Position numbers and translations under genes: made by a program
The notes under the pieces: model-generated
The model's database searches: none
What the model saw: only the letters and a program-made list of their open reading frames with translations
Told to the model about the DNA's origin: nothing
Assembly (NCBI GenBank): GCA_902779765.1
Contig: CACZCQ010000005.1
Coordinates: forward strand, 62,001 to 126,000
Origin: an uncultured Bacteroidia bacterium
GTDB lineage: Bacteria > Bacteroidota > Bacteroidia > Bacteroidales > UBA932
Direction: 5' to 3'
DNA: 64,000 bases
Part shown: positions 11,512-49,369 of the stretch, piece by piece
Layout of the letters: the number at the start of each line of letters is the position of its first letter
Numbering within the stretch: position 1 is the first letter of the stretch

Positions 11512-12120
11512 TTATCTCTTATACCTCAACTCCACAACATCCCAATTAACAATCCGCCAGAGGGCAGAGAGGTGGTCAGCACGGCGGTTCTGCCAGTCGA
11601 GGTAGTAGGCGTGCTCCCAAACATCAAAAGTCAGAATGGGCTTGAGGCCCTTGACAACCGGATTTGATGCTCCGGGGTCCTGGGTAATGACAAGTGATCC
11701 GTCCTTGTCAGCAGAAAGCCAGACCCAGCCGGATCCGAAAAGACCGACGCCTTTAGCGACAAATTCTGTCTGGAAGGCTTCGAGAGAGCCCCACTGCTTT
11801 ATTATTTGTTTCATGAGCGGCCCTTCGACAAGCTCAGGGACCGATACAGGGGCGAACTGCTGGAAATACATGTTGTGATTCAGTATCTGGCCGGCGTTGT
11901 TGAATATGGCTCCGTCGGAGTTACGGACGATCTCCGCCAGCACAGATTCTTCGCTGAGCTCAGAATGACAGAGTTCCTCCCACTTTGTCCCGACAACCAG
12001 CTTGTTCAGGTTGTCAACATACCCCTTCAGGTGCTTTCCGTGATGGAACTCCAGCGTCCTGGCACTGATAACAGGCTCAAGAGCATCTAGATTGTAAGGT
12101 AATTGTATTAAATTGAACAT
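11512..12120 (-). CDS. sodB: Iron/manganese superoxide dismutase with two repeat-derived insertions
   Basis: The start is taken at the ATG at 12120 (MFNLIQLPYNLDALEPVIS), giving 202 residues. Metal ligands are visible in EFHHGKH (about residue 26), NHNMYF (His82) and FDVWEHAYYLDWQNRR (Asp166, His170). The enzyme dismutates superoxide. Two segments have no counterpart in the family as I know it: CHSELSEESV (about 51-60) and VPELVEG (94-100). Both are translations of dispersed DNA repeats and both fall in variable loops before and after the second ligand helix. The gene sits 4 nt after ugd, an unusual place for sodB, and probably shares the polysaccharide transcript. Confidence 0.93.
   Translation of the reverse strand: MFNLIQLPYNLDALEPVISARTLEFHHGKHLKGYVDNLNKLVVGTKWEELCHSELSEESVLAEIVRNSDGAIFNNAGQILNHNMYFQQFAPVSVPELVEGPLMKQIIKQWGSLEAFQTEFVAKGVGLFGSGWVWLSADKDGSLVITQDPGASNPVVKGLKPILTFDVWEHAYYLDWQNRRADHLSALWRIVNWDVVELRYKR
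11821..11843 (+). repeat. Dispersed repeat unit inside sodB
   Basis: The core TTCGACAAGCTCAGGGACC with flanking CC/G is present as a single unit. It is read on the opposite strand by sodB as VPELVEG. The CCC/GGG ends can pair around the core. Confidence 0.85.
11944..11970 (+). repeat. Second type of dispersed repeat inside sodB
   Basis: The segment AGATTCTTCGCTGAGCTCAG followed by AATGACA is translated by sodB as CHSELSEES. From memory, near-identical sequence recurs in many unrelated bacterial genomes. Only one copy was noticed in this window, so its repeat status rests on prior knowledge. Confidence 0.55.
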
Positions 12121-12124
12121 ATTA

Positions 12125-13426
12125 TTAATCTCTTCTGAAAATATCCCTTGTGTATACCTTTTCCGCCACATCATCCAGGGCAGGATCGTACCTGTTGGCG
12201 ATGATGGAATCGGAAAGGCGCTTAAACTCATCGAGATCGTTGACCACGCGGCTTCCGAAGAAGGTTATGCCATTCTCCAGAGTTGGCTCGTAAACAATAA
12301 CCTTGGCCCCTTTGGCCTTGATCCGCTTCATGATGCCCTGGATTGCAGACTGACGGAAATTGTCCGAGTTGGACTTCATGGTCAGCCTGAATACACCGAC
12401 GGTAACTTCCCTTTCCCTCGACGAATCATATGCACTGGAAGCCGTATAATAGCCGGCTTTTTCCAGGACACGGTCAGCGATATAGTCCTTGCGGGTCCGG
12501 TTGCTCTCGACTATGGCCTTGATCAGATTCTCCGGCACATCATTGAAATTGGCCAGCAACTGCTTTGTATCCTTGGGAAGGCAGTAACCACCATAGCCGA
12601 AAGAAGGATTATTGTAGTGACTGCCGATTCTCGGATCAAGGCACACTCCCTCAATGATAGCTTGCGTATCCAGGCCTTTCATTTCGGAATATGTGTCCAG
12701 CTCGTTGAAATAGCTGACCCTCAATGCAAGGAAGGTATTGGCAAACAATTTTACCGCCTCAGCCTCGGTTGAGCCCATGATCAGGACAGGGACATCCGGC
12801 TTCAGGGAGGCGTCCTTAAGGATGGAAGCGAAGGTACCGGCCACTTCAGCAAGCCCTTCGACAAGCTCAGGGACCGAGGGACCTTGCTCAGGGACCGAGT
12901 CATACCCTACGATAATGCGGGAAGGATACAGGTTGTCGTACAGGGCCTTGGACTCACGAAGGAACTCCGGAGAAAAGAGTATCTTCGGGCGTACTACCCT
13001 GAAGCTACCATCAGTAAGCCTCTCACGATATGAGAACCGCTCGATCGCAGACTTGGTGTACCCGACCGGAACTGTTGACTTTATCACCATCACCGCATCA
13101 GGGTTGACCTCCAGCACCAACTCAATCACTTCTTCGACATGAGAGGTATCGAAGAAGTTCTTCTTGGGATCATAGTTGGTCGGAGTCGAGATTATGACAA
13201 AATCGGCTGCCTTATATGCAGTACGACAGTCAAGAGTCGCCGTAAGATTCAGTGGTTCTTCGACAAAATACTTCTCCAAGTATTCGTCCTGTATCGGCGA
13301 CTCCCTGCGATTGATCTTTTCGACCTTTTCCTGGACCACATCCACTGCAACCACCTCATGCCGGCGGGCTAATAAAGTGGCCAGGCTCAGGCCTACATAT
13401 CCGGTTCCTGCAACAGCGATCTTCAT
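12125..13426 (-). CDS. ugd: UDP-glucose/UDP-sugar 6-dehydrogenase
   Basis: The 433-residue protein starts with a Rossmann motif, [18 protein letters not shown]. It has [11 protein letters not shown], the FSPEFLRE substrate loop, [15 protein letters not shown], and the catalytic cysteine in [16 protein letters not shown]. It oxidises a UDP-sugar (glucose, or ManNAc if paired with wecB) to the uronic acid with two NAD+. It has the RFxxQ-like features of Ugd, but specificity is not certain. Residues about 176-191 ([15 protein letters not shown]) are a seven-residue duplicated insertion encoded by the dispersed repeat, placed in a surface region of the central domain. It lies 12 nt after wzc. Confidence 0.9.
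12854..12898 (+). repeat. Dispersed repeat: full unit plus half unit, inside ugd
   Basis: A full unit at 12854-12876 is followed by a half unit GCTCAGGGACCG at 12886. The two GCTCAGGGACCG cores are exactly 21 nt apart, so the insertion keeps the reading frame and gives a heptapeptide duplication in the protein. Confidence 0.88.
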
Positions 13427-13438
13427 GATTCCCGAATA

Positions 13439-15868
13439 TTATTCTTCGTCCTTGTCGTAGCCGTAGCCGTAGCTACTCTTGTAGCCATACTTGTAGCCAT
13501 AACGGTATCCGTACTTGTAACCATAACGGCCTGAACCTTCTGTTCCATTGAGCAGGAGAGAGATATTGTTGTACTTGCGGTCGGTATAGTACTTGTCAAT
13601 CTGAGGTAGCATGCTTCTTTCGAGCAGGCCTGCACGGATTACAAAGATCGTCATATCGGCAAGCGGAGCGATGATATCAGCATCTGTCACGATCTCCACA
13701 GGCGGGCAGTCCAGGAATATGTATTCATACTCCTTCTTCAACTCCTCGAGCATCTTACCGAGAGCAGGCTCAGCCAAAAGTTCAGCAGGATTCGGAGGCA
13801 TGGTGCCGACAGGAAGGACATCAAGGGGATTCTCTCCCACGTTATGAACGATCAGGCTCTTGTAGTCAGATGCCCGGCCGCTAAGATAATCGGAGACACC
13901 AACTTTCGGCTGGCCTGCAAAAACACTCAAGGAACGTTTACGGAGGTCAAGGTCGATGACGATAACCTTCTTTCCCTTGATGGTAAGAGCAGTAGCAAGG
14001 TTGATGGATGAGAACGTCTTTCCAGAACCAACATTCATCGATGTGAACATGATTATCTTAGAGGTATTATCCTTCCCTCTCATGAACTCGAGGTTGGTCC
14101 TCACCACTCGGAAAGCCTCGTTTATCATGTTCCTGTTCTGGGGTTTGACAACGATCTTCCTGTCCTCCGGGCTGTCTGAAATCTGCTTTCGTTTAAAGAA
14201 CTTCTTTTGGTCCGTATGCATTGTAGGAAGCTCACCAAGGAAAGGAGAAGTTAGGTTCTCGAGATCTTTCCTGCCTCGCACAGTTGTATTAAAAATCTCC
14301 CTTAAGTAAAGTATGGCGAATGGGATGGCAAGTCCCAGAAGCAGTGCGAGCATAAGAATCATCTTCTTATTTGGTGCAATAGGGATATTACTCCCGCTAG
14401 GAGAAACGACTACGCGTGTTGTATATGCAGTAAAAGCCTGCGAAAGTTCATTCTCCTCACGTTTCTGGAGCAAGAAGAGGTACAGTGCCTCCTTTACCTT
14501 CTGCTGACGCTCATCAGAGAGCAACCTTCCTGCCTGTAGAGGAGCGTTGGATACCCTTGCATTGGCCCTGCCCTGAGCGGCACGGGATGATCCCATCTGG
14601 GTATTGAGGCCAACGATATAGTTGTCGATGGAAGACAGAATCGAAGACTTCAACGCTGAGAGTTGGTTATCCATGTCCAGTACCAGATAGTTCTCTTCAG
14701 AACTGTTCTCTGCCAGACGATTGCGTTGAAGCATAGTGGTATTAAATTGGTTCACGAGGGAATTGACCGTAGGGTCACTGATTCCGACATTGGCTGGGAT
14801 AAGGGAGCTGGGGCCGGCATTCCGGATCTCAGTCTGCAGATGCCTGGCAATGGAAAGCTGGTTGTTAAGTTCCATGATGTGTTTACCCGCCTCGGCACTA
14901 AGCTGCATCTCCATCGTTGCGGCCGCGCCTACATCCGGCATCATGGTCTCACTCTGGTATTTGGTGATGGATTTGTCCACGTCACCAAGTTCGTCTTCAA
15001 TAACACGGAGACGTTCAGCAATGAACTCGTTGGTGCTGGTAGTAATCTGGTTCTTATCCTTAATCCAGTTCTCGTTGTAAACGTTTATTACCATCTGCAG
15101 AATCTCCTCTGCCCGACGCGGTTCATCATCATTAATAGCAAGATCAATGACGGTCGTATTTTTGCCGTTGAGAGTTGCACTAAGCTTACTTGCATAATAA
15201 CGAGCCGTTGATATAAGTCCAGTTCGAGAGACTTTTATTGGGAAAACGAAATCGATATCATCAGCAAATATCGTCCTGGAGACCTTTACATCTCCGACAG
15301 GAGTCTGAACGGTATCTCCCACGTGGGCAAGTATCTTTTTTGCTGATAGTTTTTGTTTCTTGAGTGTAAAATCGGAAAGATATACCTCCGATGAATCCTT
15401 TGGAGTAATTGTCAGAGCGGCAGAAGCATTATCATTGAGAGTAAGAAACTCAATATTTACAGGCAACGAAACTGCATATAAGGTCCAGTCATGGGCACGG
15501 CCACTCCTCGTATAATTGATATTGAGGTTCAAGTTCTTGACAACCTGAAGCATCAGGTCCGGAGACTTGAAATTGACAATTTCGTTATTGACATTGACCT
15601 TGGTCTGGCCGAAACCAAGATCTGAAAAAGCCGAGGTAATGTCTGCAGATACTGAGCGACCCTTGGAATCCTCCTTTATGAGCACAGAAGCGCTTCTGGA
15701 GTATACAGGTACCGTCTTGTAAATATAAACTGCAGCTATAAGAAGACATGCCGCGACCGCTATCGCGAACCAGAGCCAGTGGCTCACGCACAAGGTCCAA
15801 ATATCTTTGATACTGAGAGGTTCCTCCCTCTGGGATACGTTTTGGGTGTTGATATTGCGTGTTTCCAT
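13439..15868 (-). CDS. wzc: Polysaccharide co-polymerase and tyrosine autokinase (Wzc/BY-kinase)
   Basis: The 809-residue inner-membrane protein has an N-terminal Wzz domain with TM1 (WFAIAVAACLLIAAVYIY, about 35-52), a long coiled-coil periplasmic region, and TM2 (MILMLALLLGLAIPFAILYL, about 505-525). Its cytoplasmic kinase has Walker A GSGKT at about 614-618, Walker A' VIVIDLDLRKR and Walker B YIFLDCPP. The C-terminus is a tyrosine cluster with 11 Tyr in the last ~30 residues (pattern YGYKYGYRYGYKYGY). It autophosphorylates and controls chain length with the Wza channel. It follows wza by 9 nt. Confidence 0.93.
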   Translation of the reverse strand: METRNINTQNVSQREEPLSIKDIWTLCVSHWLWFAIAVAACLLIAAVYIYKTVPVYSRSASVLIKEDSKGRSVSADITSAFSDLGFGQTKVNVNNEIVNFKSPDLMLQVVKNLNLNINYTRSGRAHDWTLYAVSLPVNIEFLTLNDNASAALTITPKDSSEVYLSDFTLKKQKLSAKKILAHVGDTVQTPVGDVKVSRTIFADDIDFVFPIKVSRTGLISTARYYASKLSATLNGKNTTVIDLAINDDEPRRAEEILQMVINVYNENWIKDKNQITTSTNEFIAERLRVIEDELGDVDKSITKYQSETMMPDVGAAATMEMQLSAEAGKHIMELNNQLSIARHLQTEIRNAGPSSLIPANVGISDPTVNSLVNQFNTTMLQRNRLAENSSEENYLVLDMDNQLSALKSSILSSIDNYIVGLNTQMGSSRAAQGRANARVSNAPLQAGRLLSDERQQKVKEALYLFLLQKREENELSQAFTAYTTRVVVSPSGSNIPIAPNKKMILMLALLLGLAIPFAILYLREIFNTTVRGRKDLENLTSPFLGELPTMHTDQKKFFKRKQISDSPEDRKIVVKPQNRNMINEAFRVVRTNLEFMRGKDNTSKIIMFTSMNVGSGKTFSSINLATALTIKGKKVIVIDLDLRKRSLSVFAGQPKVGVSDYLSGRASDYKSLIVHNVGENPLDVLPVGTMPPNPAELLAEPALGKMLEELKKEYEYIFLDCPPVEIVTDADIIAPLADMTIFVIRAGLLERSMLPQIDKYYTDRKYNNISLLLNGTEGSGRYGYKYGYRYGYKYGYKSSYGYGYDKDEE

Positions 15869-15877
15869 ATTCGAGTA

Positions 15878-16726: not shown

Positions 16727-16901
16727 CTGTATTGATTGTTTTATTACTTACCGGGTATGAAAACCCCTTTCGGCAGTCAGATAACAACTGTTCCGCCGAA
16801 CGAGGCCGGATCCGCCGGACTTTCTGATTCCGGCTTCAGTCCTGCTCCTGGTCCCAGAGCGGTGTCACGGATCCCCTTTATATTTGAATGATTTCAAATA
16901 T
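16727..16901 (-). promoter_or_regulatory. Long structured 5' leader of the polysaccharide operon
   Basis: About 175 nt separate the predicted transcription start (near 16901) from the wza ATG. The leader contains a perfect 6-bp hairpin (GCCGGA/TCCGGC, 16814-16834) and further GC-rich inverted repeats, but no ORF and no T-tract terminator. No UpxY-type antiterminator gene is visible in the window. Confidence 0.4.
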
Positions 16902-16907
16902 AACAAA

Positions 16908-16939
16908 CAAATGTAGGGATTATTAGTGAGGAAAGCAAA
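16908..16939 (-). promoter_or_regulatory. Bacteroidota-type promoter for wza
   Basis: On the minus strand, TTTG (16936-16939) is followed after 20 nt by TACATTTG (16908-16915). This is an exact match to the Bacteroidota consensus TTTG-N19-21-TAnnTTTG. It lies only 10 nt after the relA stop codon. Confidence 0.75.
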
Positions 16940-16949
16940 CTTTGAAAGC

Positions 16950-19163
16950 CTACTGCCTGGAAACCTTCACCACATGGGGCAGGACCTTCAATCTGGAGAT
17001 GATCTTGTCCAACTCCATATTGGAAGGAACGGAGATCCTCATGGTAATCTCATATGTCCCTCCCCTATGGTTCTCAGCAACGTTGAAAGTCCGAAGTGAT
17101 GCCTTGAAATTGCTGACAACGGTCGTGATATCCCCGATGACAGAGGGCTCTATCCCTGCCACGACCTTTATAGAGCTCTGGAAACTGCCTCCGGAAGGGG
17201 TTTCCGCCCATCTTACTTTCTGGATCCTGTAGGGATACGTGCTGATCAGCCGTGAAGCATTCGGGCAGGAAATACGATGTATCTTGATTCCCTCGGTCCT
17301 GGTAACGAATCCGAAAACATCGTCTCCGAATACCGGGTGGCAGCACTTGGCCATCTTATAGTCCAGGTTCTTCAGGTCCTTTGCATTCAACACCAGTATG
17401 TCGTCCGAACCCTGGCGGTTCACCCATTCATCCGACCTGGCTTCGATCCTTGCCGCTTCAGCCTCCTTGGCGGCATCCACTGCAAGTGCAGCGTTCTTGT
17501 CGTGGTCCTGGATGAAGTTCTTGACCTCGTTGACATCTATGACCGAATCAGCGATGGAAGCATAGAAAGAGTTCTGCGTGGGAATCTTGCGTTTCTTGAG
17601 GAACTCCGACACCATCTCGTCCGTGAACTCAAGTTTCCAGTTCTTCAGGCGTCTTCCGAGGAGCTCACGCCCCTGGGCCGCCTTCTTGAATTCCTCAGCG
17701 TCGAGTTCCTTCTTGATCCTGCTCCTCGCCTTGGAAGTCACCACGAAATTCAACCAGTCAGGAGATGGTTTCTGGTTCTTCCCGGACATGATTTCGACCA
17801 CGTCTCCGGTCTTTAGCTTCTCCCTGATGGATACCGCCTTACCGTTGACCTTTCCACCGGTACATCTGACTCCGAGCCCGGTATGGATGTCGAATGCGAA
17901 GTCAAGGACGGTCGCTCCGGCCGACAGTATCCTCAACTCACCGGAGGGAGTGAATACGAATATCTCCCTGGAAGGCGGCTGGGGAAGGTCTTCGGAGCCT
18001 CCATTGCTGGGATGCTCAAGGGCGTAGCGGACTGAGACAAGCCATTTGTCCATCTGCTCTTCGTGCTTGACACCCTTGTACGCCCAGTGGGATGCCTGGC
18101 CGTTCTCAGCCTCATCATCCATGCGCTTGGTCCTGATCTGGACCTCGATGTAGGCCCCGCGGCTGTTCTTTACGGTGATATGCAGGGACTCATAGCCGTT
18201 CGGCTTCGGATTGGTGATCCAGTCACGCAGTCTGGTGGTATCCTGTTCGTATTCCTTGGTAACATATGAGAAGACCTTCCAGCAGAGATCCTTCTCCACC
18301 TTGGAATCCTGGTCGCAATCTATTATGAAACGGATGGCAAAGACATCGAAGACTCCCTCGAAAGGCACCTTCTGCTTCTGCATCTTCATCCAGATTGAAT
18401 ATGCAGCCTTCGTCCTGACCTTCAGCTTGTATTTGATCCCCTCCCTGGAAAGCTCTTCCTTGAGCGGCTGGATGAATTCCATCATCAGCCTCTCACGGTC
18501 CCGCTCAGTAGCCTTAAGCTTGTTGGTAATCGCCCTGTACTCAACAGGTTCCGTATAGCGGAAATAGATATCCTCCATCTCACGCTTGATGTTGTAAAGA
18601 CCAAGCTGGTGGGCCAGAGGGATATAGAGCATCAAGGTCTCGAGGATCTTGTTGTCCCTGGAATTCTTCGGGAATATGTCCAGGCTTCTCATCACTTCAA
18701 GCCTGTCCGCCAGTTTCAGCACGGTTACCCTCGGGTCCGTGGAATACTGGACGATCAGTTTCTTGTAATTCTCGGCCTCGAGGCGGGTGTCCTTCGGCTT
18801 GATGGTAGCTATCTTGTTCAGGCCGTCCACCATGGCGCGGACATCCTCAGGGAAGTCATACGGTTGGTTCGACAAGCTCTCCAACCGCTCCTCAACGGTC
18901 CCAGAGCCAACACCTCCGGTCCCTGAGCCTGTCGAAGGGCCCATCCTCATCGCTTCGTGAAGGAATACCGCAGCTGCACATTCCGCCGGAAGGCCGATTT
19001 CATCCGTAGCGATCAGCGCCGTCTTCATCGGATGGTCCAGGAACGGTCTGCCATTCTCCCTGGTCTTACCGGAGAGAGCGGCCTCAGCAATCTTGTAAGC
19101 CTTCCCGATCAATGCCTGTCCGGCCTCATCGAACTGGGGAAATTTCTGCCGGATTACATCCAT
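16950..19163 (-). CDS. relA: RelA/SpoT homologue, hydrolase domain degenerate (probable (p)ppGpp synthetase)
   Basis: The start is taken at 19163 (MDVIRQKFPQFDEAGQ), giving 737 residues. The N-terminal HD hydrolase domain lacks the key dyads: FLHEAMR (69-73) replaces the HDxxED motif, and ADRLEVMRS replaces ADRLHNMRT. The synthetase domain is intact (FDVFAIRFIID, RDWITNPKPNGYESLHITV, EVQIRTKRMDDEAE). It is followed by TGS (IFVFTPSGELRILSAG), a zinc-finger-like region (YKMAKCCHPVFGDDVFGF) and ACT. It should make (p)ppGpp only. A repeat-derived insertion (about 75-100, GPSTGSGTGGVGSGTV) sits exactly where the hydrolase active-site ED would lie. Confidence 0.92.
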   Translation of the reverse strand: MDVIRQKFPQFDEAGQALIGKAYKIAEAALSGKTRENGRPFLDHPMKTALIATDEIGLPAECAAAVFLHEAMRMGPSTGSGTGGVGSGTVEERLESLSNQPYDFPEDVRAMVDGLNKIATIKPKDTRLEAENYKKLIVQYSTDPRVTVLKLADRLEVMRSLDIFPKNSRDNKILETLMLYIPLAHQLGLYNIKREMEDIYFRYTEPVEYRAITNKLKATERDRERLMMEFIQPLKEELSREGIKYKLKVRTKAAYSIWMKMQKQKVPFEGVFDVFAIRFIIDCDQDSKVEKDLCWKVFSYVTKEYEQDTTRLRDWITNPKPNGYESLHITVKNSRGAYIEVQIRTKRMDDEAENGQASHWAYKGVKHEEQMDKWLVSVRYALEHPSNGGSEDLPQPPSREIFVFTPSGELRILSAGATVLDFAFDIHTGLGVRCTGGKVNGKAVSIREKLKTGDVVEIMSGKNQKPSPDWLNFVVTSKARSRIKKELDAEEFKKAAQGRELLGRRLKNWKLEFTDEMVSEFLKKRKIPTQNSFYASIADSVIDVNEVKNFIQDHDKNAALAVDAAKEAEAARIEARSDEWVNRQGSDDILVLNAKDLKNLDYKMAKCCHPVFGDDVFGFVTRTEGIKIHRISCPNASRLISTYPYRIQKVRWAETPSGGSFQSSIKVVAGIEPSVIGDITTVVSNFKASLRTFNVAENHRGGTYEITMRISVPSNMELDKIISRLKVLPHVVKVSRQ
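18861..18939 (-). repeat. Composite dispersed repeat in relA: full unit, half unit and inverted hairpin copy
   Basis: A full unit occupies 18917-18939 and a half unit 18896-18907, with cores 21 nt apart. At 18861-18887 there is a copy of the loop TTCGACAAGCTCT in opposite orientation, enclosed by the perfect 7-bp arms CGGTTGG/CCAACCG. The relA frame reads through all of it. Confidence 0.85.
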
Positions 19164-19215
19164 GATATAGTTCGTCTTTCCTACGAAATTACAAAAAAAA
19201 CACGAACCCCCAAAG

Positions 19216-20244: not shown

Positions 20245-21425
20245 TTCTTCTTTTTGCCGCGGAGAACGATCGTATCGCCCTCGCGAAGTACATATCCGGG
20301 AGTTATTCCGTTCATCTTGCAGACGCTGGACATCTTCACCCCGAATCTCTGGCAGATATCCCGGAGCGACTGTCCGTCCTCATCCACGATGTATTTGTCA
20401 AGTCCTTTCTCACTCTGGCTCTTCTTGGCCTGGAGGTATACGACCGTACCGGGAGCCAGTTCCTGCGGAGCGGTCAAGTCGTTGAATTTCAGGAGTTCCT
20501 TAAGGAACAGGCCGTACCTGGAGGCAATACTGGAATACGTCTCGCCATCCATTGAAGTAACGAACGGTACGCCGTTCTTCGAATATGCCTCCCTGGTCAG
20601 CGAGAACTTGAATTCTTCAAGCTGGTTCCTGTCAATCTTCTTGGGTTCCTCGAGAGACAGCGGAGAATCGGGAATCTTTCCCGTCAGTTCGTCATCCTCC
20701 TCAGCGGAAGAATGTTTCCTGGCCCTCCGTGCTGCCTTTACGGCCTTCTTTTCAGCCTTTTTCGCAGCCTTGATTCCGGCCTTGGACGGCCCTTCGACGG
20801 CGCTCTGGGACCTGTCGTTGCCTTTGTTCAGGGACCGGTCGTTATTACCGTCATGAGTCTGCTGAACGGCAGAGGCACCTACCGTCTCCTGGGTATCCAG
20901 AAGCCTTTCTGCCTCGGCCAGAGACATGGTGTCATACTTACTGAGATTGTAATCCTCAATGTATTTGATCAGCTTGTCCGGATAGCCAGGATCGGTGGCA
21001 TAACCGGCCTTCTTCAGGCCGTTCGCCCATGACTTGTAATCAGTCGTCTCGAACTCAAAGAGGAACTTGTAACGGTCACGATAACGCAGGAAATCGGAAT
21101 GGTCGCGGAAAGACTCGTCGGCATTGTCATATACCCGGAAGCACTCCCCTTTCTCATCATCGTCGTGAAACTGTTTCTTACCAGTCCAATCCTTGTGGCA
21201 CTTTATCCCGAAATGATTGTTGCCGTTTGCGGCCAGGGGCGAAAGGCCGTAACGGGACTCAAGTATGCCCTGCGCAAGCGTGATGCTTGCCGGCACCCCG
21301 CTCCGGTACATCTCCCGCACCGCAGTCGGCGCCCAATCTGACACATATTTCTCAATCTGGGGCACCTGCGCGAAGGCCGTCAATGCTCCCAGGACGAGGA
21401 CTAATATGGAAACAATCTTCTTCAT
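20241..21425 (-). CDS. Glucosaminidase with two LysM domains
   Basis: The start is taken at 21425 (MKKIVSILVLVLGALTAFAQ, a clean signal peptide), giving 394 residues. The N-terminal GH73-type glucosaminidase domain contains PASITLAQGILESRYGLS (catalytic Glu in LES), NNHFGIKCHKDWTG, and the SFRDHSDFL and GYATDPGYPDKLI motifs. A basic lysine/alanine-rich linker (about 220-260) follows, then two LysM-like domains (FVTSMDGETYSSIASRYG and YIVDEDGQSLRDICQRFG). It is a secreted peptidoglycan hydrolase. The linker contains NDRSLNKGNDRSQSAVEG, a degenerate copy of the dispersed repeat. Its stop overlaps the mltG start. Confidence 0.9.
   Translation of the reverse strand: MKKIVSILVLVLGALTAFAQVPQIEKYVSDWAPTAVREMYRSGVPASITLAQGILESRYGLSPLAANGNNHFGIKCHKDWTGKKQFHDDDEKGECFRVYDNADESFRDHSDFLRYRDRYKFLFEFETTDYKSWANGLKKAGYATDPGYPDKLIKYIEDYNLSKYDTMSLAEAERLLDTQETVGASAVQQTHDGNNDRSLNKGNDRSQSAVEGPSKAGIKAAKKAEKKAVKAARRARKHSSAEEDDELTGKIPDSPLSLEEPKKIDRNQLEEFKFSLTREAYSKNGVPFVTSMDGETYSSIASRYGLFLKELLKFNDLTAPQELAPGTVVYLQAKKSQSEKGLDKYIVDEDGQSLRDICQRFGVKMSSVCKMNGITPGYVLREGDTIVLRGKKKK
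20790..20836 (+). repeat. Degenerate dispersed repeat in the glucosaminidase linker
   Basis: The segment CCCTTCGACGG-CGCTCTGGGACC is followed by GTTCAGGGACCG 24 nt later. It is diverged from the other copies, and its spacing is 24 instead of 21 nt, still a multiple of three. The protein shows the octapeptide duplication NDRSLNKG/NDRSQSAV. Confidence 0.65.
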
Positions 21426-21472
21426 CCTTGTAAATATAGCATTTTTCGGCGAAATACGCCCCGTCACAAGGT

Positions 21473-22417: not shown

Positions 22418-22420
22418 GAA

Positions 22421-39374: not shown

Positions 39375-39397
39375 GATTCTACACGAAAAAAAGAAGC

Positions 39398-41566: not shown

Positions 41567-41586
41567 ATCGGTTCGTATTTGTATTG

Positions 41587-42159: not shown

Positions 42160-42290
42160 GCTTGTTTACAAAAATAACAATTAAAACTGAATAATCCCTT
42201 GCATATTTCCATATTATCATCTGGTGCCCGAACAGGAACAAAACCGGGGTTTTTCCAGCCTGATAACCACCTTTGGTGTCTAAGAGGGAA

Positions 42291-42331
42291 GAAAAACGGC
42301 CGAATCCTTGCCTGAGACAACCTTATTGGCC
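42291..42331 (-). terminator. Intrinsic terminator of the TonB-receptor operon
   Basis: Outer arms GGCCAAT/ATT(C)GGCC enclose a smaller hairpin, and five T follow on the minus strand. It separates the receptor gene from pnuC. Confidence 0.65.
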
Positions 42332-42350
42332 TAACTACGGATGACCTGTG

Positions 42351-44414
42351 TCAGAATGAATATTCAACCTTGAAAAGGAAGTTGAATCCGGGCATGGGAT
42401 AGTTGTCGACGATTTCATACTGCTCGTCCAGCAGATTGTTCAGGCAGAGTTTCAGGCGCATCTCTCCGGAACGAAGAGACATATCCTTCGAAACTGCAGC
42501 ATCCAGAGTCGTCCAAGGTGCCAGGCGGTAAGCCGGAAGGTTGGCCGAGGTCGTAAAACGCTCGCCGGTGGCAAAGAAAGTGACATCCAGTCTCCAACCG
42601 TCCAGTTCACCGAAGAGGTTTGCCGAACCGCTGTGAAGCGGAATATACGGAATCTGGCCGTTCCATTTTATATCATAGGTCCCTGAACCTGCTATTCCGG
42701 TCCCTGAGCCTGTCGAAGGGCTTGAAGTGGTCCTGTCGCGGGACTGCTGGAAAGTGTATCTCACCAATGCTCCGACGGTTCCCTTTCCTATCCTGCGACC
42801 ATATTCCGCCCTCACATCGCTCCCGAGTACCGCCACCTTCCCGATATTGTACATCGACCAGCGGAACTGGTTCGATGTCGGCACGGCTATTATCTTGTTT
42901 TTCAGTCGGTTCCAATAAACATCCGTCTTGAACGATAAAGTCCTGGACCCGGATGCCAGGACATCCCAACAGGCTCCAAGATCGAACTGAAGGGCATCCT
43001 CGGGTTCCAGGGTCTTGCTGCCGACCGTAGTGTAGTACAGATCGTTGAACGTGGGCATACGGTATGACCTTTTGGCAAAGCCGTCCAGCGCGAAACCGTC
43101 CGTCACCTTCCATTTCACCACAAGCGATGGCATTAGGACGCTCCGCAATGCACTCTTCCTCGCACCACCTGAAAGGAAACCGTCCTTGACGACGAGACCG
43201 AGAATGGTGGCTGAAACATCCAAAGGACCCGTACCGGCCATCGCTGAGAGGGCGCTCCAGGAGGAAAGCCGCCCGGGATAGGCGAAATCGCGCATGTCGG
43301 AATCCAGGTAGTCGTATTGCAGGTCCTGGGCAAGGTTAAGCCTCAACTTCCCCCCGGGCCTGAACATGGCTGCCATTGATGCATAGGCGGAGTGGTTGCG
43401 GTAGTTGAAACGTGCCGCCTGCAACTCCGGACGCAACTCCGGGAAGTCGGCATATTCCAGATGGCTGAATGAATACTTTGCCTTGCCGGAAATGGTCCAC
43501 GACTTTCCCAAAGCCCGCACGTACCGTCCCTGCAGGAAGGCATCCCTGTCTGACTGGCGGTCTTCGCTCAGGGGATAATCCCCCGCCCTCTTGTATACCG
43601 GTCCGGGCAGCCCCCGTTCCGAACCGTAGAAATATGCCCGGACGTTCCAGGACGCCCGTGCAGAAGCAGAGCCGAACAATCCCCCTTCAAGACGGATGCT
43701 CCGGAGATCGCAGTTCTGACGGACCATCGTGGTGTCATAGCCGGCCACTGTACCGTCCGGGTACTGCCGGAAATCCTTGACATGGAAGCGGTAGCGCCCG
43801 TTGGAACCGACGCCTTCCCCTCCCAGCCTCAGGGAGGTGCCGTTGCTGAAAAGATGTTCCCAGGCGGCTTTGGGTGAGATTGTTCCGAAGGACCCGGCTC
43901 CGGCACCGAACCTGAGGTTATCCCTGGCGCCTCCCTTGAAGGATGGGGCCGCCGTCTCCAGATAGAGGGAACTCGCGGACGAATACTCCTTGGCACTCTG
44001 TAGGGGAGCAGTCTTCTGGCCGGCGAAAAGACTCACTCCGGCAAGGTCGTCCAGCCCGAAACGCCCCAGGTCCACCTGCATGTTCTGGGCATTGTCGACC
44101 TGGATTCCGTCAATGAAAACTCCAGTGTGTTCGCTGCCTAGGCTGCGTACATTGACGGTCTTGAGACCTCCCACTCCGCCATAATCCCGGATCTGGACTC
44201 CGGAAAAACGCCTTATGGCTTCCGGAAGGCTGGTAACGGTCCTGATCTCGCCTGCGGTTATGGTCTGTGGGACGACCAGGCTCCCGAAAGTCGAACTGAC
44301 CGTCGCTGCCCGCAACGTGTCCTCGGCAGCCGGTCTAATAGGCATTGAGAAAGCCCCGGCACCAAGGAAGGAGCCGAGGTAAAGGAAGCAGAGCGCCAGA
44401 AGGCAGCGTCGCAT
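42351..44414 (-). CDS. TonB-dependent receptor (BtuB-like)
   Basis: The protein has 687 residues with a signal peptide ending GAGA. The plug domain has SLPEAIRRFSGVQIRDYGGVGGLKTVNVRSLGSEHTGVFIDGIQV, and a 22-stranded-type barrel ends NFLFKVEYSF. Size and lack of a carboxypeptidase-like domain point to small-ligand uptake (cobalamin, haem or siderophore). The preceding gene encodes a beta-propeller lipoprotein like BtuG, supporting a corrinoid-type substrate. A repeat-derived insertion SPSTGSGTGIAGSGTY lies in an extracellular loop near the C-terminus. It starts 3 nt after the propeller gene. Confidence 0.85.
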   Translation of the reverse strand: MRRCLLALCFLYLGSFLGAGAFSMPIRPAAEDTLRAATVSSTFGSLVVPQTITAGEIRTVTSLPEAIRRFSGVQIRDYGGVGGLKTVNVRSLGSEHTGVFIDGIQVDNAQNMQVDLGRFGLDDLAGVSLFAGQKTAPLQSAKEYSSASSLYLETAAPSFKGGARDNLRFGAGAGSFGTISPKAAWEHLFSNGTSLRLGGEGVGSNGRYRFHVKDFRQYPDGTVAGYDTTMVRQNCDLRSIRLEGGLFGSASARASWNVRAYFYGSERGLPGPVYKRAGDYPLSEDRQSDRDAFLQGRYVRALGKSWTISGKAKYSFSHLEYADFPELRPELQAARFNYRNHSAYASMAAMFRPGGKLRLNLAQDLQYDYLDSDMRDFAYPGRLSSWSALSAMAGTGPLDVSATILGLVVKDGFLSGGARKSALRSVLMPSLVVKWKVTDGFALDGFAKRSYRMPTFNDLYYTTVGSKTLEPEDALQFDLGACWDVLASGSRTLSFKTDVYWNRLKNKIIAVPTSNQFRWSMYNIGKVAVLGSDVRAEYGRRIGKGTVGALVRYTFQQSRDRTTSSPSTGSGTGIAGSGTYDIKWNGQIPYIPLHSGSANLFGELDGWRLDVTFFATGERFTTSANLPAYRLAPWTTLDAAVSKDMSLRSGEMRLKLCLNNLLDEQYEIVDNYPMPGFNFLFKVEYSF
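42678..42720 (-). repeat. Dispersed repeat (full plus half unit) in the TonB receptor
   Basis: A full unit lies at 42698-42720 and a half unit GTTCAGGGACC (minus strand) at 42678-42688. The cores are 21 nt apart. The gene reads it as PSTGSGTG followed by IAGSGTY. Confidence 0.88.
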
Positions 44415-44417
44415 CGG

Positions 44418-45578
44418 TTATCTGAGGACCATATGGGCGGGAAGCATCCCGGCGACGGCGGACCATTTGTATTTCAGGTCCTTGGTGAAGCACCAGACTT
44501 TTCCGGGGCCGGTATAGTCTGCGTCTGCGATATAGATATCGCCGTTCTTCGGGTTGACGAGTATGCCATAAGGATTTCCGACCCTGGCGGCGTCGGTCTT
44601 GGAAAGGGATGTCGGAATGACAGTTCCGCCCTTTATCGGAATCTTGTAGAGGGTGTTGTCGTAACCTCCGGACATCTCTGCAGCGTTGCCGATGGAATAT
44701 ACATAACCGTCATCACAGACAGTCATGCAGCTGACATGGACGTCCTTGACCACGTATAACGTCCCGGACCACTTGTACAGTCCCATAGGCTCGGACATGC
44801 TCTGGTTCCAGTTGCCGTCTGCATCCTGGGTCCAAGTGCTTTCACCATAAGTGGACACCCAGAGGTTCCCCTCTGAATCCGCTTTCAGGAAATGAAGGTT
44901 GGAAGCCACTTTTATCGTACCCGTCACCTTGAACGTAGCCAGGTCGATTACGCTGATGGTATCGTCGTGGACGGGATTGTATCCACCGCTGTTTGCCACA
45001 CAGAGCTTGTCACCGGAGACGGCGATTCCCTCAGGCTGGCAGCCGACCTCGATCGTACCGTCAACTGAATATGTAGACAGGGATATCCTGTAGACCCTCC
45101 CCACGGTTTCCTCGCCTCCGTAAACCGCTCCGGCATAGGAACTTACATAGGCATAGGCCTTATCAAAAGCAATGTACCTAGGATCGGGGATATGTATCGT
45201 CTTGAGCAGGATCTCGTTTTTTGCATCCAGGACATGGACGGCCCCGGAGGCGTTCATCACAACCCACAGTTTACCCTCATGGAGAACCAGGTCGTTACCT
45301 GTATCCCCAAGTCCTTGGACTACAGCAGGATTCATGGATCCGAAAGCGTCGGACACGTAATTTCCATCAGAGAACCTGAAGAAATCGAGGGTGGAATTGT
45401 TCTTCTGGAAGTTGCCCTCGTTGAGGACGAAAAGCTTCGAGAAGGCCGCCTTCTTTTCACCTACTGCAACATTGACACCCGCAAGGCCGGAATCCTTGGA
45501 GGTGGTTTCATCTTTACTGCAGCCGACGGCTATCGCCATGGCTGCCACGCTGAAAACCAGCAGTGCACACTTTTTCAT
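44418..45578 (-). CDS. DUF5074/YncE-like beta-propeller lipoprotein (BtuG-like)
   Basis: The 386-residue lipoprotein (VAAMAIAVGCSKDE) begins its mature part with LFVLNEGNFQKNNSTLDFF, the typical DUF5074 opening. It has repeated propeller blades (GKLWVVMNASGAVHVLD, CQPEGIAVSGDKLCVANSGG, PYGILVNPKNGDIYIADAD). In Bacteroides the BtuG protein of this type binds cobalamin at the surface and pairs with BtuB. Here the next gene, 3 nt away, encodes a TonB receptor, matching that arrangement. No cobalamin riboswitch fits in the 76 nt upstream, so the ligand is uncertain. Confidence 0.82.
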   Translation of the reverse strand: MKKCALLVFSVAAMAIAVGCSKDETTSKDSGLAGVNVAVGEKKAAFSKLFVLNEGNFQKNNSTLDFFRFSDGNYVSDAFGSMNPAVVQGLGDTGNDLVLHEGKLWVVMNASGAVHVLDAKNEILLKTIHIPDPRYIAFDKAYAYVSSYAGAVYGGEETVGRVYRISLSTYSVDGTIEVGCQPEGIAVSGDKLCVANSGGYNPVHDDTISVIDLATFKVTGTIKVASNLHFLKADSEGNLWVSTYGESTWTQDADGNWNQSMSEPMGLYKWSGTLYVVKDVHVSCMTVCDDGYVYSIGNAAEMSGGYDNTLYKIPIKGGTVIPTSLSKTDAARVGNPYGILVNPKNGDIYIADADYTGPGKVWCFTKDLKYKWSAVAGMLPAHMVLR

Positions 45579-45600
45579 AAAGAATATGTTAAAGAACGAA

Positions 45601-45634
45601 ATTGTCCCACAAAGATAATACTTTGCGGGACAAT
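45601..45634 (-). terminator. Hairpin after fba, probable terminator
   Basis: Fourteen-bp arms ATTGTCCCGCAAAG/CTTTGTGGGACAAT pair on the minus strand with one G-U wobble around a six-nt loop. The T-tract is weak (TTTCGTTCTTT), and the next start codon lies only 22 nt beyond. Confidence 0.7.
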
Positions 45635-45654
45635 TGTCAATGGAACGGAGTGGT

Positions 45655-46656
45655 TTATTCGGCCTTTCCGTCGGAACCGAGCACGTTGATGATCTTGTGC
45701 ATGTAAAGCTTCTTCATCTCGTCACGGGCAGGTCCGAGGTACTTCCTAGGATCGAACTCGCCGGGCTTCTCGTCGAAGACCTTACGGATGGCGGCGGTCA
45801 TTGCAAGACGGCTGTCGGAGTCGATGTTGATCTTGCAGACAGCGCTCTTGGAGGCCTCGCGGAGCTGCTCCTCGGGAATACCGACTGCATCAGGCAGTTT
45901 GCCACCGTGGGCGTTGATGATGTCCACATACTCCTGGGGCACGGAAGAAGATCCGTGGAGGACGATCGGGAATCCGGGAAGCTTCTTCTCGATCTCGTGA
46001 AGGACATCGAATGCGAGCGGCGGAGGAACGAGACGGCCGGTCTCGGGATCCCTCTTGCACTGCTCAGGCTTGAACTTGTATGCGCCATGGGATGTTCCGA
46101 TGGAGATGGCGAGGGAGTCGCAACCGCTGCGGGTAGCGAATTCGATAACCTCCTCGGGACGGGTGTAATGGGATTCCTCTGCGGAAACCTCATCCTCTAC
46201 ACCGGCGAGGACACCCAGCTCGGCCTCGACAGTGACGTCGTACTTGTGGGCGTAGTCAACCACCTGCTTGGTGAGGGCGATGTTCTCCTCGAAAGGAAGA
46301 GCGGAAGCATCGATCATAACTGAAGAGAAGCCCATGTCCACGCAGCTCTTGCAGAGCTCGAAGGAATTGCCATGGTCGAGGTGGAGGCAGATCTGGGGAT
46401 GCTCCCAACCGAGTTCCTTTGCGTACTCGACAGCACCTTCAGCCATGTAGCGGAGAAGGGTCTGGTTGGCGTACTTGCGGGCTCCGCTGGAAACCTGGAG
46501 GATGACCGGAGACTTGGTCTCAGCAGCGGCCTGGATGATTGCCTGGAGCTGCTCCATGTTGTTGAAGTTGAATGCGGGGATCGCGTAACCGCCGGCGACA
46601 GCCTTAGCGAACATCTCTCTGGTGTTCACAAGGCCAAGTTCTTTGTAAGATACCAT
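45655..46656 (-). CDS. fba: Class II fructose-bisphosphate aldolase
   Basis: The 333-residue protein shows AGGYAIPAFNFNNMEQLQAI, the zinc-ligand segment CLHLDHGNSFELCK, VMIDASALPFEENI, VEAELGVLAGVEDEV, SLAISIGTSHGAYKF and VLHGSSSVPQEYVDII. It cleaves fructose 1,6-bisphosphate in glycolysis and works in reverse in gluconeogenesis. Codon use and GC content are those of a highly expressed gene. It has its own likely promoter overlapping the upstream stop codon, and is followed by a strong hairpin. Confidence 0.95.
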   Translation of the reverse strand: MVSYKELGLVNTREMFAKAVAGGYAIPAFNFNNMEQLQAIIQAAAETKSPVILQVSSGARKYANQTLLRYMAEGAVEYAKELGWEHPQICLHLDHGNSFELCKSCVDMGFSSVMIDASALPFEENIALTKQVVDYAHKYDVTVEAELGVLAGVEDEVSAEESHYTRPEEVIEFATRSGCDSLAISIGTSHGAYKFKPEQCKRDPETGRLVPPPLAFDVLHEIEKKLPGFPIVLHGSSSVPQEYVDIINAHGGKLPDAVGIPEEQLREASKSAVCKINIDSDSRLAMTAAIRKVFDEKPGEFDPRKYLGPARDEMKKLYMHKIINVLGSDGKAE

Positions 46657-46716
46657 AATTTATTGTAGATAAAATAATCGTTTGTCAAATCCGTCTGAAA
46701 GGCTTCAAAAGCCGTG

Positions 46717-46747
46717 CAAATTTACTCTTTTTCCTCTAAAAATAAAA
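46717..46747 (-). promoter_or_regulatory. Probable promoter for fba
   Basis: The -7 element TAAATTTG (46717-46724, minus strand) matches TAnnTTTG exactly and overlaps the stop codon of the preceding gene. The -33 position is TTTT instead of TTTG, at 19-nt spacing. Confidence 0.5.
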
Positions 46748-48185
46748 GCTGTTCCGTCAAGCTCAGGTATCGGCGCTCCACTATCCCGCCTTCCGACACT
46801 TTCATGACGAACGGCAGGCCGGAGAGATCGAAGGCATCGAGCAGTTTCCTGGCCTTTTTCGGGGATTTTTCCTCCAGGGCATCCATGTTGACAGCGAAAT
46901 AGTCAAGCCCGAGCGAATCGGCCAGTGCCATCTCCGCCTCGCAGATCTGGCAGCCTTCGGCATGGAAGAACATGTAACCACCCTTCTGGCGGAACTTGTT
47001 CCATCCCTTGATGCACATCCTCGGGATCTTCGACCCGACGGGAGCCTTTTTCAGAAGCCCGTCAAGCATCTCCGCCATCCCCACGACCATCAGGGTGTCT
47101 TCATCCGTATTCCAGATATCCGGGCGCGTCAGTATGTAACCGTCAATCAGCGATGCTGCCCCTTCGCGGAAACCTTCTTCCCTTTTTCCGGCGATATAGT
47201 ACAGCAGGTCGCCCTCCAGGTGCTTGAAGCCAAGGGTATCCCCAAGGTCCAGCGTACGCCCCTTCAACAAGGATGCGACATCAGCCACATCAGATGCGGA
47301 AACGCTTCCTCCATATGTCGAGAACAGCTTGTCGAACAGTGCCTTGGAGGCCTCACTTCCATAGTCGTACTCACCGTCGTCCAGTAAGACGTCCAGCATC
47401 TGCTCGAGGGATCCGGTATCCAGTCCCCTTCCAATGATAGTCCCTTCCTGATCGACGAGGAACATCCTGGGAGTCTGGATGATACCATATTTGAACTGCA
47501 GGTCGGCCGATGAATCGGGGTCCCAGAGATGGAACACTTCGGTCTCTTCCGTATCGAGTACGAAGGAATTCTTCATCCAGCGCTTCCAGCCCTCTTCGTT
47601 GGTACCGACGTAGACCGCATAGACCGCCACAGGGTAGTCCTTGTCATTCAACAGGCTGCGAAGCGTAGCGGTTTCCAGCTTGCATTTCGCACAGTCGATG
47701 TCGTAAAAGTAATATACCGACGTCTGGCGGGCCTGCCGGACCGCCGCTTCTCCTATGAACACGCTTTCACCGAGAGGATCGGTCAGTTCCGCTTCCGGCG
47801 CGGGCATCCCGATCAGCGACAGGCGGTTGAAATCCGCGAACATCCTCGCCTCGAACAGGTCGCTGTCACTTCCCATCGGCACCTTTCCGGGTATGAACCA
47901 GGTATCGGTGACATGGATGGCCACGGCCTCATCTCCCATCAGGGCGGAATGACGATAGTGGTCATAGACCTTGAGGGCGATCGCCTGCCTGACCGCCGGA
48001 TCCTGGGAGGCCTCGATCAAGGCATCGCATTCCTCGATCTTCACCGAAACCGGCTCCTGCTCAAGGAGGGCGAAATACTCCTCCATCCGGGCATCCAGCA
48101 GGGCCATCCTGGCGGAATCGACCTGTGCCGCCGCGTCAAGGACACAGAGGATCACGGAGAAGATTATTACCGCCAGCTTTTTCAT
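46722..48185 (-). CDS. DUF5106 protein with two thioredoxin-like domains
   Basis: The 487-residue exported protein (signal IFSVILCVLDAAAQ) has a helical N-terminal DUF5106-type region (about 20-145), a TlpA-like thioredoxin domain with the redox pair in YDIDCAKCKLE (CxxC, about 172) and ...QTPRMFLVDQEGTIIG. A C-terminal second thioredoxin-like domain has FFHAEGCQICEAE (CxxC) and SGLPFVMKVSEGG. It is probably a periplasmic thiol-disulfide protein. Its ATG shares one base with the coaD stop (TGATG), so the two genes are co-translated. Confidence 0.8.
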   Translation of the reverse strand: MKKLAVIIFSVILCVLDAAAQVDSARMALLDARMEEYFALLEQEPVSVKIEECDALIEASQDPAVRQAIALKVYDHYRHSALMGDEAVAIHVTDTWFIPGKVPMGSDSDLFEARMFADFNRLSLIGMPAPEAELTDPLGESVFIGEAAVRQARQTSVYYFYDIDCAKCKLETATLRSLLNDKDYPVAVYAVYVGTNEEGWKRWMKNSFVLDTEETEVFHLWDPDSSADLQFKYGIIQTPRMFLVDQEGTIIGRGLDTGSLEQMLDVLLDDGEYDYGSEASKALFDKLFSTYGGSVSASDVADVASLLKGRTLDLGDTLGFKHLEGDLLYYIAGKREEGFREGAASLIDGYILTRPDIWNTDEDTLMVVGMAEMLDGLLKKAPVGSKIPRMCIKGWNKFRQKGGYMFFHAEGCQICEAEMALADSLGLDYFAVNMDALEEKSPKKARKLLDAFDLSGLPFVMKVSEGGIVERRYLSLTEQLLFLEEKE

Positions 48186-48652
48186 CAGACTTCCGGAAGC
48201 TTCACCCAGCCGGGAATGAATTGTGAAAGGTCTCCGTGATGGCTCACGACATCCCTTACGGCTGACGAGGAGATATGGGAATATTCCTGTGCTGTAGGGA
48301 TGATGATGGTGTCGATCTCAGGAGCAAGGTGACGGTTCGCATCCGCCACCGCCTGCTCGTTGTCGAAATCGGTCATGTTCCTGACCCCCCTGACAATATG
48401 GCGGATGCCAAGTTCACGGCAGATATCCACGGTGAGCCCGTCATAGCTGATGATCCTGACTCCTTTCAGGTCCTTTGTCGCCTGACGGATTATGTCCTCC
48501 CTCTGGTCCATGGTAAAGAAGCCCTTCTTGGCTTGGTTGATTCCGACGGCCACCACCACCTCGTCGAAGATGGTAAGGGCCCTGGTGAGGATATTCAGAT
48601 GGCCGGAAGTGAAGGGATCGAAGGACCCCGGGAATAACGCTATTCTATCCAT
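48185..48652 (-). CDS. coaD: Phosphopantetheine adenylyltransferase
   Basis: The start is taken at 48652 (MDRIALFPGSFDPFTSGHLNIL), giving 155 residues, the usual length. It has the SGHLNI nucleotide-binding motif, GINQAKKGFFTMDQRE, IVRGVRNMTDFDNEQAVADANRHL and SSSAVRDVVSHHGDLSQFIP. It performs the fourth step of coenzyme A synthesis. It starts 4 nt after ung. Confidence 0.96.
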   Translation of the reverse strand: MDRIALFPGSFDPFTSGHLNILTRALTIFDEVVVAVGINQAKKGFFTMDQREDIIRQATKDLKGVRIISYDGLTVDICRELGIRHIVRGVRNMTDFDNEQAVADANRHLAPEIDTIIIPTAQEYSHISSSAVRDVVSHHGDLSQFIPGWVKLPEV

Positions 48653-48656
48653 ATCG

Positions 48657-49325
48657 CTACAGTTGCCAGTTGACCGGCGTTTTGTTTTCACTGATGAGTA
48701 TTTCGTTGGCTTTAGAGAAATGTCGGCACCCGAAGAAGGCTCCCCGCGCCAAAGGCGAAGGGTGCGCCGCTTCAAGGACATAATGCCTGGAGGTGTCTAT
48801 CAGTTCCTTCTTGCTCCTGGCAAAACTGCCCCAGAGCATGAATACTATACCGGAGCGGTTCTCTGACAGATAGCGGATAACCGCATCGGTGAACTGCTGC
48901 CAGCCGATACCGCTGTGTGAAGCGGCTTCGCCCGAACGGACCGTGAGTATGGCATTCAGGAGCAGGACACCCTGCCTTGCCCAAGACTCGAGGTTGGGAC
49001 GTCCGCTCATGCTGATCCCCAGGTCGGACTCGATCTCCTTGAAGATATTCTTTAGGGACGGAGGTGCGGGCACATTGTCAGGGACAGAGAAACTCAGGCC
49101 CATCGCCTGGCCGTAGCCGTGGTATGGATCCTGCCCGAGGATGACCACCTTCACCTTGTCCACCGGAGTCAGTTCAAAGGCCTTGAATATCTCCGGACCG
49201 GGAGGGAAAATCACCTTCCCTTCCGCCTTCTCGCGATGGAGCAGCCGGGCAAGTTCCGCGAAGTAGGGTTTCTCGAACTCCCCTGCCAACGCTTCCTTCC
49301 AGCTCTGTTCTATCTTGACGTCCAT
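48657..49325 (-). CDS. ung: Uracil-DNA glycosylase
   Basis: The 222-residue protein has the family-1 UDG motifs VVILGQDPYHGYGQAMGLSFSV (catalytic Asp), GVLLLNAILTVR and the leucine-loop motif AAHPSPLARGAFFGCRHFS. It removes uracil from DNA. The start codon lies only about 8 nt after the T-tract of the lon terminator, leaving almost no room for a separate leader. Confidence 0.96.
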   Translation of the reverse strand: MDVKIEQSWKEALAGEFEKPYFAELARLLHREKAEGKVIFPPGPEIFKAFELTPVDKVKVVILGQDPYHGYGQAMGLSFSVPDNVPAPPSLKNIFKEIESDLGISMSGRPNLESWARQGVLLLNAILTVRSGEAASHSGIGWQQFTDAVIRYLSENRSGIVFMLWGSFARSKKELIDTSRHYVLEAAHPSPLARGAFFGCRHFSKANEILISENKTPVNWQL

Positions 49326-49331
49326 AATAAT

Positions 49332-49369
49332 GAAAAATCCGGTCCTTCGACAAGCTCAGGGACCGGATT
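49332..49369 (-). terminator. Intrinsic terminator of lon built from the dispersed repeat
   Basis: Perfect 10-bp arms AATCCGGTCC/GGACCGGATT (49336-49345 and 49360-49369) enclose a 14-nt loop that is the core of the dispersed repeat, and five T follow on the minus strand. Confidence 0.88.
49343..49365 (+). repeat. Dispersed repeat unit, intergenic copy
   Basis: The core TTCGACAAGCTCAGGGACC is preceded by TCC. It is the only copy outside a protein gene in this window, and forms the loop and inner stem of the lon terminator. Confidence 0.88.

Follow-up and report, generated by a model that had tools for sequence, protein, structure and literature searches.

We analysed a 64,000-nucleotide (nt) stretch of DNA from an uncultured Bacteroidia bacterium (Bacteroidales, UBA932; contig CACZCQ010000005.1, positions 62,001 to 126,000), hereafter the window, in which one short repeat recurs inside sodB, ugd, relA, a glucosaminidase gene and a TonB-dependent receptor gene, and in the gap between lon and ung; these gene names are backed by Pfam matches. 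The window holds five exact copies of the repeat core, TGAGCYTGTCGAA, together with a near copy in relA and a degenerate one in the glucosaminidase gene. Searching with a 19-mer at up to one mismatch returned five sites (sodB 11824, ugd 12857, relA 18918, TonB receptor 42699 and the lon-ung gap 49346), against 0.01 expected from shuffles. An earlier note on this DNA, made from the sequence alone, had claimed six core-bearing loci, and these were recovered as the five 19-mer sites plus the glucosaminidase copy at 20788, which is genuine but degenerate, with one extra base in its core. Further one-mismatch cores at positions 56582, 58238 and 62410 all lack a paired stem and may be chance matches, and an Rfam scan of the window at the gathering threshold returned a single tRNA as the sole match.

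Copies abound outside the window. The 2.48-Mb genome to which it belongs contains 37 exact occurrences of TTCGACARGCTCAG, compared with 0 for the reversed control, and 48 exact occurrences of TTCGACARGCTCA, the opposite strand of TGAGCYTGTCGAA. The earlier note had proposed a genome-wide core search with mismatches allowed, and had named a lack of copies elsewhere as an outcome that would speak against its reading; tolerating up to one mismatch raised the total to 99, compared with 11 for controls.

Insertions relative to orthologues

Comparison with relatives revealed that, in RelA and the TonB receptor, residues encoded by the repeat are additional to the conserved protein. In RelA, the window reads HEAMRMG-PSTGSGTGGVGSGTVEERLESLSNQPYD-FPEDV where its closest relative (85% identity) reads HEAMRIGNRDESLLPT-FPVDV, a gain of 19 residues (57 nt) between conserved blocks. 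We fetched 17 orthologues from the same genus, 16 of which were readable at the site (L251 is truncated); none of the 16 carried the repeat, 15 being plainly short and one, from genome G158 (L250), having other extra residues, a different stretch of about 12. Twelve further orthologues from the order likewise lacked it. The TonB receptor is 15 residues longer at its copy than all 12 aligned orthologues. For relA and the receptor, then, orthologues did not share the same residues at the same sites, the other outcome that had been set against insertion. In the glucosaminidase gene, the conserved blocks stand 66 nt further apart than in G165, the difference being spread over several gaps, one of which (42 nt) lies at the repeat. 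Alignments for sodB covered 8 relatives of 21 searched, and those for ugd the 8 relatives with a close ugd.

A tagged hairpin with a covarying stem

The element strand reads 5'-CGGT-NNN-TGAGCYTGTCGAA-N'N'N', a unit of ~23 nt comprising a one-sided tag, a 3-bp stem that varies yet stays paired, and a 13-nt core that is invariant. This anatomy was established on 141 distinct copies, all located by the core alone with flanks not preselected: 43 of the 48 copies in the window's own genome (the other five lie in loci outside the script input), 47 copies, hand-picked among the matches listed, from 12 further genomes, one in the genus and 11 elsewhere in the order, and 51 copies from 30 loci in 24 distant carrier genomes that had first been found with a longer 23-mer. 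Stem pairs 1 to 3 were Watson-Crick in 95, 89 and 88% of copies, where the best of 300 shuffles reached 69, 52 and 57%. Each stem position shows several pair types (stems include CCC/GGG, GGC/GCC, CGC/GCG, CAC/GTG, TGG/CCA and CAT/ATG), so that bases vary while pairing is kept, and a perfect 3-bp stem was present in 35/43 own, 31/47 order and 45/51 distant copies. Pairs 4 to 10 showed no excess over shuffles in any of the three sets taken singly. GGT stood at the 5' foot in 33/43, 16/47 and 40/51 copies, respectively, whereas its 3' mirror was found in 1/43, 0/47 and 6/51; the CGGT tag, complete in 31 of the 43 own copies, is therefore one-sided and lies outside the covarying stem. Folding hinted at a bulged T within a longer outer stem; this was rejected after the bulged register showed no covariation excess. 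On the TGAGC strand, the core could close through T-A, tandem G.A/A.G and G-C pairs, a closure that the folding program does not show.

These features bear on whether the repeat might be a DNA-uptake-like or binding-site motif, kept by point mutation and selection and never inserted. Its presence in coding and intergenic DNA alike, and in contigs of a viral collection, would suit such a motif. The length gains at relA and the TonB receptor would not, nor would a total of merely tens of copies in the window's genome, and compensated stem variation is unexpected for a site that is read by sequence; we consider this explanation very improbable.

Some copies are accompanied by a second half-unit. 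As claimed in the earlier note, it lies 21 nt from the first in ugd, relA and the receptor and 24 nt away in the glucosaminidase gene. Genome-wide, a downstream CTCAGGGACC-like half-unit was spaced at 21 nt in six of nine matches within Pfam-matched genes, the other three falling at 18, 45 and 8 nt (the last overlapping the ugd unit), and in neither of the two matches outside such genes, which fell at 12 and 40 nt. The proposed 21-nt register is real as a spacing, but it reflects a partial second unit of some copies only, the unit itself being the ~23-nt tagged hairpin. Upstream, a CCCTTCGAC half-unit gave 10 matches over 9 copies, at spacings of 9 nt (six), 12 nt (two), 24 nt (one) and 8 nt (one). 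Inverted pairs with 12 nt separating the cores occur in a priA-like gene (L063) and an epimerase gene (L041), and a looser inverted pair in relA was missing from the earlier list. A facing inverted partner within ~100 nt, at up to one mismatch, was found at four loci only (L061, L063, L069 and L041), most copies having none. Coordinates within the window are collected in Table 1.

Table 1. Repeat copies, half-units and a second repeat family in the window
Feature	Position	Strand
Element copy in sodB, CGGT-CCC-TGAGCTTGTCGAA-GGG, peptide VPELVEG	11821..11843	-
sodB, other repeat family: CHSELSEES peptide, TGTC-type tag, one mismatch to GTCATTCTGAGCGNAGCGAAGAATC	11945..11969	-
Element copy in ugd, peptide VPELVEG	12854..12876	-
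Half-unit accompanying the ugd copy, 21-nt spacing	12884..12899	-
Inverted partner in relA, one core mismatch (core 18868), stem TGG/CCA, tag CGGT	18865..18887	-
Half-unit accompanying the relA copy, 21-nt spacing	18896..18906	+
Element copy in relA; the gene, on the opposite strand, reads PSTGSGT	18917..18939	+
Degenerate copy and half-unit in the glucosaminidase gene, 24-nt spacing	20788..20838	-
Half-unit accompanying the TonB-dependent receptor copy, 21-nt spacing	42677..42687	+
Element copy in the TonB-dependent receptor gene, which reads PSTGSGT, within the 15-residue insertion	42698..42720	+
Intergenic copy between lon and ung, outer stem longer	49343..49365	-

Host genes and reading frames

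To place the copies relative to genes, 38 open reading frames (ORFs) of at least 150 residues spanning copies in the window's genome were scanned with Pfam (E ≤ 1e-5). Thirty were matched, together holding 34 of the 48 copies; since this figure is a lower bound, the coding versus non-coding tabulation suggested earlier gives at least 34 copies inside recognizable genes, the other 14 falling between genes, in ORFs that Pfam did not match or in stretches too short for a call. Proteins bearing an insert include ribosomal protein S2, DXS, DnaX (two copies), SSB, PriA, TruB and a PP-loop protein, as well as a Mur ligase, dihydrofolate reductase, S-adenosylhomocysteine hydrolase and thiamin pyrophosphokinase.

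Stop codons are absent from five of the unit's six frames, as had been claimed, and the TGA falls in the remaining one. Among the 34 copies, 14 are read as VPE(L/P)VEG-type, 11 as PSTGSGT-type and 9 as LRQAQ(G/E)P-type peptides, whereas the FDKLRDR, SLSLSKG and stop-containing frames are used by none of the copies in Pfam-matched ORFs. That two of five open frames stay empty has a chance of ~3e-7 under equal use, a value that treats copies in the same gene as independent although they are not. Outside this count, copies in two ORFs without a Pfam match (L066 and L072) would read the FDKLRDR frame, and the degenerate glucosaminidase copy reads RSLNKG in the SLSLSKG frame. The frames in use encode many Pro, Gly, Ser or Thr residues, and the bias looks like purifying selection at the protein level for turn-prone peptides rather than the mark of an element built for every frame. 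The earlier idea of a mobile or amplifying element is supported, but frame tolerance is incomplete, with three of the five open frames used in the 34 copies.

Distribution across genomes

High copy numbers are restricted to particular lineages. Within the genus, 40 of 61 genomes hold at least one copy and 21 none; seven hold five or more (48 in the window's own genome, then 19, 13, 7, 6, 5 and 5), and the other 54 hold 0-4. Across the order, 83 of 149 genomes were matched, 16 of them with at least 10 copies and a maximum of 100. In a wider search, the exact 23-mer CCTTCGACARGCTCAGGGACCGG returned at least 119 stretches, with record titles naming Actinomycetota, Bacteroidota, Fibrobacter, Gemmatimonadota, a Lachnospiraceae metagenome-assembled genome (MAG), Thermoflexales, Moraxellaceae and Candidatus Kuenenia, which we take to be eight phyla. 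Mis-binning is possible for the many MAGs among these records; isolate genomes represent three phyla (Plantibacter and Microbacterium; Fibrobacter intestinalis; Algoriphagus and Cognataquiflexum). Whole-genome counts in the 24 carriers ranged from 2 to 603, against 0-2 for controls, with 603 in Plantibacter flavus, 565 in Microbacterium sp., 536 in Plantibacter sp. and 90 in Fibrobacter intestinalis, but 11 in Nocardioides, 9 in Cognataquiflexum and 2 in Algoriphagus. The claim, in the earlier note, that similar sequences occur in unrelated bacteria holds at the DNA level.

Identical sequence in unrelated phyla, with many of the records being MAGs, could also arise from assembly, adapter or contamination artefacts. 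Each copy has flanks and a compensated stem of its own, however, and isolate genomes of three phyla carry the repeat, which leaves this possibility practically negligible.

In Microbacteriaceae (L284, L118 and L143), copies form clustered arrays with spacings of ~35-225 nt, compared with mostly single copies in the window's genome, and the L284 array has mixed orientations. An apparent strand bias in Microbacterium (G216, with 100 plus-strand copies on one contig among the matches listed) was discarded, since minus-strand copies occur in L284 and L308. The tagged core was also present in contigs of the viral collection (L431-L510; at least 120 stretches), and phage may accordingly carry the repeat between hosts.

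A probable mobile hairpin and its candidate enzymes

Dispersed copies, lineage-specific high counts, residues absent in relatives, a varying stem that remains paired and a one-sided tag together argue that the repeat is probably a non-autonomous mobile hairpin akin to repetitive extragenic palindromic (REP) sequences. In such a scheme, the tag-bearing strand would fold once it becomes single-stranded, for instance as part of the lagging-strand template, and a DNA-processing enzyme acting in trans would recognize the tag plus hairpin. Copies would then be pasted elsewhere, at times as inverted pairs or partial tandem units; selection would clear those that shift the frame or damage the protein, and the survivors would be found in loops and linkers, in three frames with turn-prone peptides. 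If the repeat is a mobile hairpin, short DNA parasites would be writing peptides into conserved proteins, here in Bacteroidales (dihydrofolate reductase, DXS, PriA, DnaX, SSB and S2, for example), and the share of protein loop variation due to selfish DNA becomes testable.

REPs are thought to be moved by REP-associated tyrosine transposases (RAYTs; Y1/HUH family, PF01797). Several observations weigh against a mobile hairpin or its independence from such enzymes. We observed no transposition and identified neither an enzyme nor a target-site duplication; the flanks near the sites are too diverged for exact junctions, and the sodB and ugd copies sit in loops that vary among relatives, so that the net insertion size is not fixed there. 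In the anatomy, pair 5 lies slightly above shuffles when the 141 copies are pooled (49% versus a maximum of 47%), the tag is weaker in the order set (CGGT in 9/47), and DNA folding gives no clear strand preference, with the receptor copy predicted to fold otherwise. Finally, PF01797 was found in 16/16 order genomes with at least 10 copies versus 103/149 overall (p ~0.002, with the cut-off chosen afterwards), a co-occurrence that favours a RAYT role in Bacteroidales.

The repeat could accordingly be an ordinary REP moved in trans by a resident RAYT/Y1 transposase, and its 5' tag plus hairpin is indeed the REP architecture. The window's genome encodes four divergent Y1-like proteins (L031-L034; ORFs of 210-322 residues, near the Pfam cut-off), and a two-mismatch core with its GGGACC flank intact lies ~0.4 kb from L033, and an exact copy ~0.9 kb beyond the L032 gene; no exact core was found in the 3.2-kb loci of the four genes. 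We inspected 40 RAYT loci, the best-scoring among the matches listed from 13 order genomes with at least 8 copies; some of the loci are cut by contig ends. An exact core was present in the flanks of one (L213), where two cores (1696 and 2281), both lacking a perfect 3-bp stem, lie on the same side of the gene; the other 39 had none, and two have only a one-mismatch match without a stem.

Outside the order, the correlation fails. No PF01797 match was obtained in 15 of the 24 carrier genomes, comprising all 13 named Actinomycetota isolates (11-603 copies), a Gemmatimonadota MAG (136) and an Actinomycetota MAG (110); every carrier with more than 94 copies was among them, including the 603-copy Plantibacter flavus. 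Two order genomes, G045 (9 copies) and G063 (6 copies), likewise gave no match. RAYT as a universal driver was therefore rejected, and we regard mobilization by a resident RAYT as an unlikely explanation of the repeat. Because PF01797 could miss a very divergent HUH enzyme, the claim is limited to a RAYT of known type not being required; in most hosts outside Bacteroidota, the mobilizing enzyme is probably not a PF01797 transposase. With one sequence common to several phyla, and the best-known candidate enzyme not found in 15 of the 17 non-Bacteroidota carriers tested, the identity of the enzyme moving orphan REPs is now testable.

Relation to known repeat classes

In the broad sense of REP, the repeat qualifies as a short imperfect palindrome, a class dispersed in tens to thousands of copies (48 in the window's genome and up to 603 in Plantibacter flavus), but REPs are mainly extragenic, whereas at least 34 of the 48 copies here are intragenic. 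Miniature inverted-repeat transposable elements measure 70-300 bp, with terminal inverted repeats and a target-site duplication; the present unit is ~23 nt long, with junctions too diverged for duplications to be seen. The earlier comparison with Rickettsia palindromic elements (RPEs) is apt in behaviour, as those elements also insert in frame into conserved genes, leave relatives with empty sites (relA and the TonB receptor here) and use several reading frames. RPEs are longer than this repeat, which spans ~23 nt, or insertions of up to ~57 nt with partial repeats, and is found in several phyla. The likeness does not extend to the tag, RPE-4 and RPE-6 being described as CGTC-tagged in PMC3733652 and the present repeat carrying CGGT.

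That paper (Di Nocera et al. 2013) defines GTAG and CGTC REP superfamilies, reports intragenic REPs, with gene-inserted examples in Rickettsia and several REP-rich genomes, and describes CGTC REPs as lacking a dedicated transposase. Like the CGTC REPs (RPE-4, RPE-6 and Neisseria dRS3), the repeat is a short hairpin with a one-sided 5' tag, spread over several phyla, with inverted dimers, some intragenic copies and no dedicated transposase found for the CGTC class (PMC3733652). Unlike them, it bears CGGT in place of CGTC, TGTC or CCTC, has a 3-bp variable stem and fixed 13-nt core where theirs is an 8-9 bp stem starting AT with a 4-5 nt loop, and lies mostly inside genes in the window's genome. 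With GTAG REPs and REP doublets forming hairpins (REPINs), served by RAYT (TnpAREP; PMC6006769), it shares a 5' foot tag, a hairpin, inverted pairs and dispersed copies, but its foot is CGGT and not GT[AG]G, and exact cores lie near 1 of the 40 RAYT loci inspected. That work (Quentin et al. 2018) also describes GT[AG]G feet, REPs lying in frame inside RAYT genes, and hairpins of atypical form close to one Bacteroidetes RAYT subclass; a link between those hairpins and this repeat is possible. In open-licence PubMed Central text, without figures or supplements, we found no literature on the core oligonucleotides, related oligonucleotides or peptides. We call the repeat a REP of a new CGGT-tagged sort, an earlier description outside open-licence text being possible.

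Apparent recurrent landing loops

Other repeats occupy the same protein loops in related species. In SodB, repeats lie near the loops in four of the eight aligned relatives, and loop 2 holds four repeat types across four species: VPELVEG in the window, RHSRLD...RES in G151, a VIPD array in G149 and CHSERSEES twice in G189. Loop 1 carries CHSERSEES-type repeats in the window, G159 and G189, and the SodB of G151 has VPEPVEG slightly further along. The Ugd loop likewise holds VPELVEG in the window and CHSERSEES in G189 (L386). Different hairpins therefore use the same loops in different species, and repeats seem to have landed in sodB again and again. At the DNA level, the CHSERSEES and RHSRLD repeats start with TGTCAT or CGTCAT and continue into a hairpin, and the VIPD array contains CGTCATCCCCGAC across codons; by inspection, these three repeats match the CGTC class as set out in PMC3733652. 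A search of the window for generic perfect or near-perfect CGTC-AT hairpins returned none, and one copy of the other family (family B) is present in sodB.

We tentatively suggest that the repeat may represent a third, CGGT-tagged superfamily of orphan REP-like hairpins, with one core common to up to eight phyla or more, moved by a widespread non-RAYT single-strand DNA enzyme of host or mobile origin, and landing in the same exposed loops as unrelated CGTC-type hairpins. Repeats of CGTC type, with the peptides CHSERSEES, RHSRLDRES and VIPDLIGDP, occupy the SodB loops of several species in the genus (the window, L273, L274, L278 and L279), sometimes in tandem.

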